This document shows positions 1-9,895 of a stretch of 50,371 nucleotides of DNA, in pieces. Each line of letters opens with the position of its first letter. Position 1 is the stretch's first letter. Below the pieces are notes generated by a model, which had not been told where the DNA came from, searched no databases, and saw nothing but the letters and a program-made list of their open reading frames with translations. The DNA is taken from assembly GCA_002085155.1 (NCBI GenBank), contig NASX01000013.1:1-50371 (forward strand), given 5' to 3'. Both the position numbers and the translations under genes were made by a program. The DNA is from Sorangiineae bacterium NIC37A_2 (lineage in GTDB: Bacteria > Myxococcota_A > Polyangia > Polyangiales > Polyangiaceae).

Positions 1-41
1 CGCTTGAAGTCGTCGTTGTAGTTCTTTCTCTTCTTCGCCAT
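1..41 (-). CDS. IS3-family transposase OrfA, N-terminus only (partial)
   Basis: An ATG at 41-39 begins a frame reading MAKKRKNYNDDFK and runs off the left edge. Basic residues followed by Y-x-D/E-F-K are how many IS3-family OrfA proteins start, at the head of their HTH_Tnp_1 DNA-binding domain. OrfA binds the IS ends, and an OrfA-OrfB frameshift product normally carries out transposition. A purine-rich GGGAGAATGG lies just upstream and could be the ribosome site. Only 13 complete codons are visible, so the family call rests on this short signature plus the IS-like flank. Confidence 0.55.
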   Translation of the reverse strand, partial: MAKKRKNYNDDFK

Positions 42-101
42 GGTCCATTCTCCCGGAGCATTGTTGCTCCATTTTGTCTCCGGGAAATCGGATCAGGTCC
101 A
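1..101 (-). mobile_element. End of an IS3-family insertion sequence (partial)
   Basis: The window opens inside what looks like the left end of an IS3-type element read on the minus strand. The start of an OrfA-like transposase lies at 41-1. Upstream of it, minus-strand sequence beginning TGGACCTGATCCGATTTCCC (from about 101) resembles the terminal repeats of IS3/IS911-type elements, which begin with TG and carry a CCGGAGAC-like stretch. The leader contains nested hairpins: TCCCGGAG (51-58) with CTCCGGGA (78-85), and GGAGCA (55-60) with TGCTCC (65-70). The exact outer boundary (about 93-101) is a guess, and target-site duplication cannot be checked because the other end is outside the window. 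Confidence 0.55.
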
Positions 102-159
102 ATGTTCGCTGAAGGTGCGTTGGTGCACGAGTAAGGCGAACGCCCCCAATCAAAAGAAG

Positions 160-192
160 AAAGCCCTCAGAGCATAAGGTTCTGAGGGCTTT
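160..192 (-). terminator. Strong intrinsic terminator, probably bidirectional
   Basis: A perfect 12-bp stem, AAAGCCCTCAGA (160-171) and TCTGAGGGCTTT (181-192), encloses a 9-nt loop. On the minus strand it is followed by CTTCTTTTG, and on the plus strand by CTCGTTTT. It sits 24 bp past the stop of the minus-strand HTH gene (216-506) and probably ends that transcript, while shielding it from the IS element. Confidence 0.85.
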
Positions 193-215
193 CTCGTTTT
201 CATCTGTCTGCCTGG

Positions 216-506
216 CTAGCAGGCTTTGCGAAGCTCAATGTCTTCTGTAGGGGGCATGAGCCGCTCCATGAGGAGGGCCCTCACGGCCTGCCTCAGCATG
301 GCGTCCATGGGACGTTCCTCCCGTTCCCACCGAGAGATGCTTTCTCCCGTGCTGGCTAATTTCTTGGCGAACTCCGTTTGGGTCAGGCCGAGTGCCTCGA
401 TTGCGTAATTCAAGATCTGCGGAGAATGAACCCCTCCAACGGAAGCTGAGTGGTGACAGCTCTCGACCCCGAGTGCCAAGGCCCTTGTCACCAGTCTCAG
501 AGCCAT
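216..506 (-). CDS. Small XRE/MqsA-like helix-turn-helix protein
   Basis: Predicted 96-residue DNA-binding protein. The last ~55 residues form a Cro/C1-type HTH (ILNYAIEALGLTQTEFAKKL, then an SISRWERxERP recognition-helix pattern), closest in feel to the C-terminal half of MqsA/YgiT-type antitoxins. The first ~40 residues resemble no domain and lack the zinc-binding CxxC pairs of MqsA, so the protein may be truncated. The frame stays open back to 644, but the ATG at 506 is preferred because the upstream part is an AT-rich palindrome. No clear ribosome site precedes it. GGTGACA heptamers overlap its 5' end and surround its promoter region, which fits autoregulation (inference). It ends at the terminator 160-192. 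Role in the mobile element: repressor or orphan antitoxin; not decidable here. Confidence 0.6.
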   Translation of the reverse strand: MALRLVTRALALGVESCHHSASVGGVHSPQILNYAIEALGLTQTEFAKKLASTGESISRWEREERPMDAMLRQAVRALLMERLMPPTEDIELRKAC

Positions 507-558
507 TTTAGGCCGCGAGAGCCGTTTGGTGACAGGTGACAGGCTTCCACAAACTATT

Positions 559-588
559 TCTATACGGACTTCCAAAAAGAAATTCCAA
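559..588 (-). promoter_or_regulatory. Possible sigma70-type promoter for the HTH gene
   Basis: On the minus strand TTGGAA (588-583) is followed after 18 bp by TATAGA (564-559), a fair match to -35/-10 hexamers inside the AT-rich core. Transcription would start near 552 and reach the ATG at 506. The tandem GGTGACA pair (528-541) would then lie between transcript start and gene start, a natural repressor position. Single weak match; not proven. Confidence 0.3.
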
Positions 589-609
589 ATCGATTTATTT
601 TTGGAAGTC
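567..609. repeat. AT-rich perfect inverted repeat (12 bp arms)
   Basis: GACTTCCAAAAA (567-578) pairs perfectly with TTTTTGGAAGTC (598-609) around a 19-nt loop. It lies in a ~100-bp pocket (542-640) of roughly 35% GC, far below the surroundings. TTCCAAA-like words recur around it (545, 571, 583). It is the centre of the larger heptamer palindrome and could be a DNA-unwinding element, an operator or a bidirectional promoter core. Confidence 0.75.
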
Positions 610-744
610 TCCCTATGGAAGGTTTTCATCAAATTTGCTGTCACCCTGTCACCAGAGGGGTTTTGTGGCTGAATTTGGCTGCGGAAGTGGTGACAGGCAA
701 CTTGTCACCCGTTGTCACCGCTCGCACGTTCGAGCCCCAAATGG

Positions 745-798
745 CTGAGAGGGCGGTGACAAGCATCATGTATTCATAATGCGTCACCGCCCTCTCAG
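745..798. repeat. Long stem-loop with heptamers in the stem
   Basis: CTGAGAGGGCGGTGAC (745-760) pairs perfectly over 16 bp with GTCACCGCCCTCTCAG (783-798). The loop itself continues pairing (GCAT...ATGC, ATG...CAT around TATT), giving an almost fully paired ~54-nt hairpin. No T-run follows on either strand, so it is not a standard terminator. Both arms contain the heptamer of the 452-788 array together with its TGGCT(CT)GAGAGGGC extension. Confidence 0.8.
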
Positions 799-955
799 AG
801 CCAAATCAAAGCACTTCTAGATCTCACGACGGAGGCGCTCATCCAGCTCCGCCTCGGCTACGTCTGTCTCGCGGACGAGGGGGAAGCGCCGCACGGCGTA
901 GCGCCTGTTTTGTCCCTGGCCCAAGTCGGCCGTCCTCGTCGGTGTAACTCCCTAG
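799..955. other. Gap with a possible short minus-strand ORF remnant
   Basis: Between the stem-loop and the HNH gene no complete gene is evident. A minus-strand frame open between stops at 954-952 and 819-817 has GC-rich, coding-like third positions and ends in ...RRFPLVRETDVAEAEL-DERLRREI. It has no ATG and only ~44 codons, so it may be the end of a decayed gene or chance. Confidence 0.25.
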
Positions 956-1405
956 ATGGAGTCACTCAGAGAGCGGTTCGAGGCGAAGTACGAGGTAGAT
1001 GAGGCAACGGGATGCTGGCTTTGGACAGCTTCCAGGGGTGAGAAGGGCTACGGCCGCTTCGAGGTAGGCGGCAAGATGAGGAGGGCCCATCGGGTTTCCT
1101 ACGAGCTTTTCGTAGGGCCGATTCCAGAAGGGCTACTGGTCTGCCATCGCTGCGACAACCCTACGTGCGTGAACCCCGCCCACCTCTTCTTGGGCACGAA
1201 CGAGGAGAACCTGAAGGACATGGCAGCCAAGGGCCGAGCCGCACGCCTTCTTGGGGAGGCCAACGGCAAGTCCAAGCTCAGCCCCGAGACCATCGAGAAG
1301 ATTAGGGCAGCGAAGGGGAAGACTCTGGGTCAACTCGCCGTCGAGTTCGGGACGTGCGTAAGCAACATTAGCCAGATCCGATCTGGCAAGAGGCGGGCCT
1401 CCTAG
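956..1405 (+). CDS. HNH endonuclease (phage/homing type)
   Basis: Predicted 149-residue HNH_3-type nuclease. Residues ~18-90 follow the family layout: GCWLWT, Y-G-R-F, then [39 protein letters not shown] with two Cys pairs and the N-P-x-H metal-binding core, then an ENLKDM helix. Residues ~100-145 ([26 protein letters not shown], then SNISQI) look like the HTH tail found in many phage HNH proteins. Such enzymes nick or cut DNA and move as free-standing homing genes in phages and integrative elements. The ATG at 956 lacks a clear ribosome site. Its position 250 bp from the tRNA-Gly fragment fits mobile-element cargo. Confidence 0.85.
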
Positions 1406-1518: not shown

Positions 1519-1621
1519 GCGGAACTTCTAGGATCGCCAGGGATCGCCCTGAAACGCTGTTGAAGCCATTTTAGGCTGGGATCCTCGTTGTTCTCCGGTG
1601 CTTTTCGACCCCCAATTCACC

Positions 1622-1666
1622 TTCCCAAGGTCGAGGTCGAGGGTTCAAATCCCTTCTCCCGCTCCC
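1622..1666 (+). other. 3' half of tRNA-Gly(CCC): probable attachment site
   Basis: The sequence matches a bacterial tRNA-Gly(CCC) from the anticodon loop onward: loop TTCCCAA (1622-1628, anticodon CCC at 1624-1626), 3' anticodon-stem strand GGTCG, variable region AGGTC, T-stem/loop GAGGG-TTCAAAT-CCCTT (1639-1655), acceptor strand CTCCCGC (1656-1662), discriminator T1663, then CCC. The 5' half is absent: no GCGGGAG partner strand or D-arm lies upstream. Tyrosine-recombinase elements commonly insert in tRNA anticodon loops and leave such a 3' duplicate at one end. It is therefore read as the right att site of an element extending left. The intact tRNA should lie outside the window. Confidence 0.75.
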
Positions 1667-8848: not shown

Positions 8849-9895
8849 CTAAAATTTCCCGCTCAAGCCGAGGCCCGGCCCATCAGCAAAACCTAACATC
8901 GGTTGCATCTCCACCTTGCCGAACTGCTTGGACAGGAGCGCCGTCTCTTTCTTCTTTCCACCCCAGTCGGTCAGCCACGCCCCGGTGACCACCGTGAGCA
9001 CACCCACCGCCACCGTTGCCCCTAAAGCCACGTTTGCGATGGTCTGATTTTGCAGGCCTTGCTGGTATTCAGGGCAATCCGCGTTGCCCATGCAGTTTTC
9101 GCGGACTGCGTCCACGCCGGGTTCGTTGATGGCTCGTACCCCGAGGATTGTGGTCGCCACCACACCTGCGCCGGTCAGCCCCACGCCGGTCCAGAACACC
9201 GCCGGAGACCAGCCGCGACCACCGTCCGCCTCGGCCGGCTTTTTCGCGTACTCTTCGTCACTTTCCTCGTCTTGTCGCGAGTTCAGCCACTCAGAGGTCT
9301 CCTGGCTCACAGGCTCAGTCGGGGCGATCAGGTCGAGGGATTCTGTACCGCCCGCCTCGATCTTCACACCGAGATTCCTCACATGTCCCCCAGACCAGTT
9401 CACTCGGAGCCGATGTTTGCCAGGAGTAACGTAGAGAGTCCTCTCATAATCCTCGGCGCCATGGACTAACTTGTTGTCCAAGAGCAGCTTACAGGGCTGA
9501 TCGCAGCGAATATTGATCTGTCCGAGGCCCGCTTCGTGAGCGCCTATCAGCGCGGTCGCCTCTTTCTGAAGCTCGGCTTCGTCGGGATAGAGGCGAAGCG
9601 CCAGCGCTGCCAAGGTGAGCGCACGATCGAACTGTTCAGCCCTCGCCCTCGACAACATCGCGAGGCGCAGGGACGCAGAGCTCGGTGCGTAAGCGTCCGC
9701 CGCTTCGAAACTCTCCGCTGCCTCGATGAAACCGCCACTACGGAACGCAGCGCGCCCTCGGTCGAATGATTCCGCGGCCTTCTCGATCTCGACGGCAGTT
9801 GGCGCGTCCGATGCAGCAGAAGACACGGACGCGAAACAGAGCGCAGCGCCGATCAGCGAGGTCTGAATGAGCGGAGGGAATTTACGTAACCGCAT
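8849..9895 (-). CDS. TPR/PEGA-like membrane protein, kinase partner
   Basis: 348 residues. A Sec signal peptide (about 1-27, ending ASVSSAAS) is followed by a short TPR-like helical region (~35-115, with ALTLAALALRLYPDEAELQ), a beta-rich PEGA-like segment (~125-195, CDQPCKLLLDNKLV and YVTPGKHRLRVNW), an acidic linker, and two hydrophobic helices (~235-255, ~290-310). This layout is common beside Ser/Thr kinases in myxobacteria. It is the first gene of a two-gene unit with the kinase. No catalytic motif. Likely exported and membrane-attached; function unknown. Confidence 0.75.
   Translation of the reverse strand: MRLRKFPPLIQTSLIGAALCFASVSSAASDAPTAVEIEKAAESFDRGRAAFRSGGFIEAAESFEAADAYAPSSASLRLAMLSRARAEQFDRALTLAALALRLYPDEAELQKEATALIGAHEAGLGQINIRCDQPCKLLLDNKLVHGAEDYERTLYVTPGKHRLRVNWSGGHVRNLGVKIEAGGTESLDLIAPTEPVSQETSEWLNSRQDEESDEEYAKKPAEADGGRGWSPAVFWTGVGLTGAGVVATTILGVRAINEPGVDAVRENCMGNADCPEYQQGLQNQTIANVALGATVAVGVLTVVTGAWLTDWGGKKKETALLSKQFGKVEMQPMLGFADGPGLGLSGKF

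Follow-up and report, generated by a model that had tools for sequence, protein, structure and literature searches.

Origins of SaPI elements hold an AT-rich segment between sets of repeats, and the octamer of the phage P4 origin is GGTGAACA/TGTTCACC. The iterons of SaPI origins lie directly downstream of rep and are recognised by the C-terminal domain of Rep (passages of PMC7581432, citing Ubeda 2007). For SCCmec Cch2, a putative origin of three AAGTG iterons downstream of the helicase gene is described in the same passages, where SaPI5 Rep is named as the closest homologue of Cch2 (PMC7581432). Similarly, P4 alpha binds the repeats of its origin through a winged helix (passages of PMC4234260); in circular P4, alpha and the integrase are separated only by att, and P4-like sets lacking alpha exist (passages of PMC8628076). 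The origins of pRN1 and BIP-1 are described as a stem-loop 3′ of a Prim-Pol/SF3 replication gene, the pRN1 origin lying 3′ of its own replication gene and being reported, in passages of PMC4234260, without iterons. RepA_N origins are another origin type (excerpts of PMC7145576). Replicons can also exist without replication genes, as in the IncQ satellite plasmids, laboratory- and gut-evolved, which are rep-less parasites replicated by a full-length partner (excerpts of PMC6925257).

The locus described here lies in a window of 50,371 bp, the whole stretch of DNA that was analysed, which starts at the beginning of contig C91 of a draft genome. Like the SaPI origins, it concentrates several short words at a single site in a small integrative element; unlike them, the element carries no helicase, and the word is GGTGACA, in both orientations and in 42-bp pairs. 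The array and its parts are:

452–798, both strands: heptamer array, a putative iteron origin, with 10 exact GGTGACA and 1 GGTGACG
486–534, minus strand: copy 1 of the outward pair TGTCACC-N35-GGTGACA, reversed relative to copies 2 and 3
647–695, plus strand: copy 2 of the outward pair TGTCACC-N35-GGTGACA
713–761, plus strand: copy 3 of the outward pair TGTCACC-N35-GGTGACA
528–541, plus strand: tandem heptamers with a 7-bp step
639–653, minus strand: tandem heptamers with an 8-bp step
567–609, no strand: AT-rich centre, a candidate unwinding element, a 17-nt inverted repeat with the palindrome AAATCGATTT at 587–596
742–803, no strand: hairpin with perfect 16-nt arms (745–760/783–798) containing the 755 and 783 words

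The exact words lie at 452, 486(−), 528, 535, 639(−), 647(−), 689, 703(−), 713(−) and 755. The eleventh, at 783(−), is GGTGACG with one mismatch, and the span thus holds 10 exact copies and one near copy in 338 bp. Over the whole window GGTGACA is found 12 times against 3.31 expected, a count reached in none of 100 shuffles; ten of the 12 copies are inside the array and two elsewhere in the 50 kb. A preliminary description made from the sequence had reported eleven copies on both strands, one of them mismatched, as being above chance, and had noted three outward pairs of identical spacing; both statements are borne out. The spacing of 486/528, 647/689 and 713/755 is exactly 42 bp each, three outward pairs at one common distance have a probability of 0.0023 (100,000 random placements), and these three pairs are the only matches to TGTCACC-N30-40-GGTGACA in the 5.0-Mb draft genome. 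The 35-bp interiors are related, as had also been claimed: the first, reversed, is identical to the second at 20/35 positions on recomputation (0/20,000 shuffles as good), to the third at 17/35 (p=0.0034), and the second to the third at 14/35 (p=0.029). The (A/T)(A/T)TGGCT core attributed to the interiors is likewise found, and the composite WWTGGCT-N8-GGTGACA occurs exactly three times (486−, 674+, 740+), with an N10 variant at 783−.

The symmetry that had been placed at about 590 is recovered with a best dyad centre of the region at 590.5, where 57/120 positions are paired, an imperfect dyad. The central palindrome needs correction from 12 bp: the perfect palindrome is 10 bp, AAATCGATTT, and is surrounded by 17-nt arms at 567–583/593–609. 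AT content is 67–68% over 541–640 (60-bp steps) within a window of 63% GC. This AT-rich segment sits between the tandem words 528/535 and 639/647, an arrangement shared with the SaPI origins. The array also differs from the putative Cch2 origin, in which three direct iterons follow a helicase gene, whereas this locus has 11 words distributed over the two strands and lacks a helicase. The hairpin at 742–803 (dG −25.9, z −9.4), which was absent from the preliminary description, is strong and recalls the stem-loops of pRN1 and BIP-1, although the pRN1 origin is reported to be without iterons. A search of the window against Rfam gave only a sub-threshold His_leader at 63–197 (29.3 vs 49 bits).

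The array sits between divergent HTH and HNH ORFs, near one end of the element:

1–101, minus strand: IS end at the edge of the contig, with the opposite IS end closing contig C62 (ends compared by eye)
149–203, no strand: terminator-like inverted repeat 3′ of the HTH ORF, of which 158–194 is identical at the paralog locus
216–476 (upper bound approximate), minus strand: HTH ORF, remnant of the C-terminal part of an MqsA-type antitoxin, homologous to the paralog as far as 405
817–948, minus strand: short ORF of 43 codons ending just beside the array
956–1405, plus strand: HNH endonuclease gene of the phage-type HNH_3
1475–1514, no strand: GTGGACAG / CTGTCCAC inverted pair near attR, candidate integrase arm sites
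1619–1664, plus strand: attR, a perfect 46-bp match to the tRNA-Gly(CCC) 3′ end on contig C62

On contig C62, the tRNA-Gly is followed by a tyrosine integrase (Phage_integrase), an excisionase-like HTH_17 gene, small ORFs and a DUF7481 lipoprotein gene. The 46-bp att repeat, the tRNA-Gly 3′ end and the integrase next to attL are those of a tRNA-integrating tyrosine-recombinase element. C62 and C91 most likely each carry half of a single element, about 5.9 kb long when the IS is left out, a join that is deduced from a matching ATG beside both IS ends and from a lipoprotein frame that is open across it. The 3-bp ATG duplication flanks the IS at L026 4671–4673 (C62) and at window 102–104, and the lipoprotein frame, read by eye, remains open for ten codons beyond window 104, up to a stop. 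The element so joined would contain the integrase, the excisionase, the lipoprotein, the truncated MqsA-type HTH remnant and the HNH gene, and the array would lie about 0.8 kb from attR. This place at the attR end is comparable to that of alpha next to att in P4. The DUF7481 lipoprotein cargo gene (L026 3933–4673) is interrupted by the IS near its 3′ end. The IS is IS3-like by resemblance only, and the same IS end breaks the assembly at the starts of C82, C26, C45, C28 and C51 and at the end of C123. The sequence AGCCATTTTAGGC occurs once in the array (501–518) and once 38 bp before attR (1564–1581), with 89% identity over 18 nt. For the 817–948 ORF, no convincing relatives were obtained by HMM or BLAST; it was also considered as a helicase C-terminus and rejected, since a wing-only profile ranks it 384th of 834 open stretches and HMM and BLAST give nothing.

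As such, the array was met nowhere else in the sequences searched. DNA of the array region had no match in phage and plasmid records, and matched in three of the 108 family genomes, its own included. The two other matches cover window 846–906, outside the array and in unrelated sequence, and no copy of the array was found elsewhere in its own genome or in the 107 other family genomes. The pattern TGTCACC-N30-40-GGTGACA matches 9 of 59 genomes; the eight genomes other than its own have it at one place each, with N32 to N39 and N35 in one. Among viral contigs the exact N35 pattern was present in 117 stretches, and the matches listed (80) had one site each and no array. The shorter GTCAC-N37-GTGAC is present in 108/108 genomes and, as too short a pattern, is uninformative by itself. 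In the literature, no title or abstract opening was found that describes the array or the helicase family discussed below, which does not prove that neither has been published. The preliminary description had known of no described family with this layout, and this is half right: SaPI origins, according to passages of PMC7581432, are downstream iteron arrays.

Elements with similar integrases give a basis for comparison. The integrase has matches at E 1e-40 or better in 40/183 genomes of the order, its own included, the others at 35–59% identity, and 20 loci from these matches were fetched. All 20 carry the integrase and 18 an alignable excisionase, and none has relatives of the HNH, lipoprotein or small ORFs at E 1e-4. 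A homologous helicase is encoded in four of the 20 (L061, L072, L074, L078). In L074, which is at a tRNA-Val, a 724-aa helicase ORF is followed immediately 3′ by a 295-bp stretch that contains ten GTGAC words, on both strands. Two-strand TGAC-core arrays start 5 bp (L072, with the words ATGACG/CGTCAT) and 81 bp (L074) past the helicase stop, and none was seen at the helicase in L061 and L078. By eye, the GTGAC clusters of L066, L067 and L076 were attributed to chance.

The 724-aa protein of L074 has relatives in 12/183 genomes of the order, its own included. The same profile matched 11/377 genomes of the phylum and found no homologous helicase in the genome of the window, a negative that by itself does not demonstrate absence. 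Prim-Pol domains are present in two of five helicase members scanned (L086, L087); the L085 helicase has no match in Pfam (E 0.1), PHROGs (0.1) or NCBIfam (0.01), and a PDB sequence search with the helicase profile returned weak matches only, the best at E 0.019. An AlphaFold model of the L235 helicase built on 39 relatives (pLDDT 84.5, pTM 0.80) has the SaPI5 primase-helicase 7ola_C as its nearest solved fold by VIA-align Z (Z 20.3, rmsd 6.5, 382 residues), followed by poxvirus D5-type helicases at Z about 17–18. By Foldseek E-value, the C-terminal region of phage NrS-1 comes first and 7ola sixth. The last 65 residues of the model comprise a strand (492–496), helices (497–513, 521–537) and strands (540–547, 550–557), and residues 492–557 read as a predicted winged helix. 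With its Prim-Pol fusions and a predicted fold nearest the SaPI5 primase-helicase, the helicase is predicted to be a replication protein. The family is spread over several bacterial phyla (L085/L235, L081, L088 and the wider set).

Arrays at the 3′ end of the helicase gene were counted in two sets. From 14 order-level helicase loci fetched, 10 were scored; L084, L092 and L094 run off the stretch and L093 is the L083 gene. TGAC-core arrays lie 3′ of the helicase in five of these ten (L081, L085, L086, L088 and L089, the last on one strand only) and in none of L082, L083, L087, L090 and L091. The wider set consisted of the best 80 of 116 loci from the genome collection and 40 from a viral collection. 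Of these 120, 14 were left out for contig edges, near-duplication or partial or weak matches, and 102 of the 106 that entered were scored, three having less than 250 bp 3′ of the stop and L332 being dropped for the same counts as L331. Paired inverted words in 8–10-bp steps within −30 to +300 of the stop were found at 21/102 helicases vs 10/5945 control windows. By motif, GTCA/TGAC gave 13/102 vs 6/5945 (Fisher p 1e-19) and GTCC/GGAC 8/102 vs 4/5945 (p 2e-12), the p values being uncorrected for the relatedness of the loci. 7-mers with at least five copies on both strands occur at 19/102 helicase 3′ ends vs 55/3854 controls; by these criteria about a fifth of the 3′ ends bear an array.

The words of these arrays vary, for instance GTGACGA in 12 copies (L235), ATCGTCA (L262), CTGACGA (L306), CCGTCAC (L331) and ACCGTCA (L329). 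The cyanobacterial L291 has eight GTGAC, including GGTGACA four times. A frameshift seems to lie behind its called stop, another frame continuing the winged helix and running through the array, and the array words there would therefore overlap coding sequence. The viral contigs L329, L331 and L332 carry the same helicase with TGAC-core arrays 3′ of it. Alphaproteobacterial helicases (L274, L277, L281, L283, L290, L297, L302, L310) have GGCGGAC-type arrays and not TGAC words. By eye, 'FG' precedes xELRR in the winged helix of 8/8 GGAC-word and 0/20 TGAC-word helicases, an association that is not independent of phylogeny and is not used as proof.

The array of the window resembles this class in part. 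It passes the 7-mer count, with 10 copies on both strands, but fails the strict paired 8–10-bp motif; its tandem steps are 7, 8 and 10, whereas the helicase-linked arrays mostly step by 9. The exact 42-bp outward spacing occurs twice in L235, of the Polyangiaceae, and GTCAC-N37-GTGAC is in no other of the 111 helicase 3′ regions scored (103 plus 8 order-level regions, L235 and L268 being the same genes as L085 and L086); the whole L235 genome has this pattern in only three places. The TGGCT composite, with a spacer of 6–12, is present in 1/111 regions, L291. Like the SaPIs, some related elements carry their array immediately 3′ of the gene for a helicase that is nearest, in predicted fold, to the SaPI5 primase-helicase by Z, and as in P4 a C-terminal winged helix is predicted to read the helicase-linked repeats. 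Unlike P4, the element of the window has no alpha gene; its words may resemble the P4 octamer. It also differs from the SaPIs in that the array is not directly downstream of a rep helicase, no homolog of which was found in the genome.

Several other functions can be considered for the array. A regulatory operator array, to which an element-encoded protein would bind cooperatively at the heptamers, looping the DNA and controlling the neighbouring genes, is unlikely, yet of all the alternatives it keeps the most weight. The spacing of four helical turns in the three pairs would suit it, as would the position between divergent HTH and HNH ORFs and the related 35-bp interiors with their second word TGGCT, which is nearly absent from helicase-linked arrays (1/111). 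However, GGTGACA is not found beside int, xis or the small ORFs of C62, where the sole copy is inside the lipoprotein ORF (L026 4593), and a truncated antitoxin and an HNH gene are poor clients for an 11-site switch. An ORF of 125–139 aa on C62, ribbon-helix-helix-like by eye, serves as an example of a binder, but at E 1 neither Pfam nor PHROGs gives it a match. The version of the operator that the preliminary description had offered, a repressor-operator switch of the adjacent HTH gene, is scarcely credible. The MqsA-type HTH ORF is adjacent to the array and its HTH_3 domain is above the Pfam cut-off; nevertheless it keeps only the C-terminal part of the antitoxin. Window 147–405 has 79% DNA identity to the 3′ part of a complete gene on contig C78, an MqsA-type antitoxin gene preceded by a DUF4258 gene. 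The complete DUF4258–MqsA-type antitoxin pair is at L025 about 8966–9757. No GGTGACA cluster is present at this intact locus, the nearest word having one mismatch, and the array therefore does not travel with the HTH gene.

Recombination functions were weighed in the same manner. Tyrosine integrases use repeated arm words, and the array is within about 0.8–1.2 kb of attR, as arm-type or accessory sites of the element's integrase or excisionase might be. Such sites are nevertheless very unlikely here, for a different word, GTGGACAG, occurs near both att ends, twice near attL, and is a better candidate for the integrase arm sites than GGTGACA, which is absent beside attL. It is also very doubtful that the array represents decayed transposon ends or binding sites similar to the TnsB/TniA repeats, or that it serves in packaging or transfer. 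Short words repeated in both orientations close to one end of a mobile element would fit, but no transposase gene is seen by the array except in the separate IS at 1–101, and the lack of any array copy in the rest of the genome or in the 107 other family genomes does not favor transposition.

We consider it somewhat probable that the array is a cis-acting replication origin of the SaPI/P4 iteron style, orphaned here. The preliminary description had named the replication origin of the mobile element as one of its two proposals, and comparison supports it: the element is real, and some related elements have similar arrays on the 3′ side of a SaPI-Rep-like helicase. The best reading is that the array would work like a SaPI origin; SaPI membership is not claimed, as the adjacent helicase is absent. 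The short iterons, in both orientations around the AT-rich centre, would be recognised by a self-loading replicative helicase through its C-terminal winged helix. The helicase would assemble on the iterons and open the AT-rich centre, and priming could then begin on the excised circular element. The helicase gene being absent from the element, the origin is read as orphaned: it may have been left behind when rep was recently lost, or a helper may serve it in trans. That the words are nearly perfect speaks for a helicase lost not long ago or for continued use in trans.

The second of these possibilities can be carried further, tentatively. The element of about 5.9 kb might be a rep-less integrative parasite whose replication a helper element or phage with a SaPI-Rep-like helicase would provide in trans, a proposal that we regard as rather improbable. 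Such a parasite would have kept the integrase, the excisionase, the att sites and a well-preserved SaPI-type origin and no helicase. The IncQ satellites are a precedent for a replicon without replication genes, although they are plasmids and not integrative elements. The near-perfect state of 10 of the 11 words, together with the finding of no such helicase in the genome, suggests that the array may still be under selection.

With this array, a natural integrative element offers a concrete case of what may be a replication origin parted from its initiator. The comparison further reveals SaPI-Rep-like helicases as a family present in several phyla, some of whose members have self-adjacent inverted iteron arrays. 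As the arrays adjoin the 3′ end of the helicase gene in some members, origins may be predictable from the 3′ end of the gene, and the self-adjacent arrays would also allow the specificity of initiators for their words to be compared.
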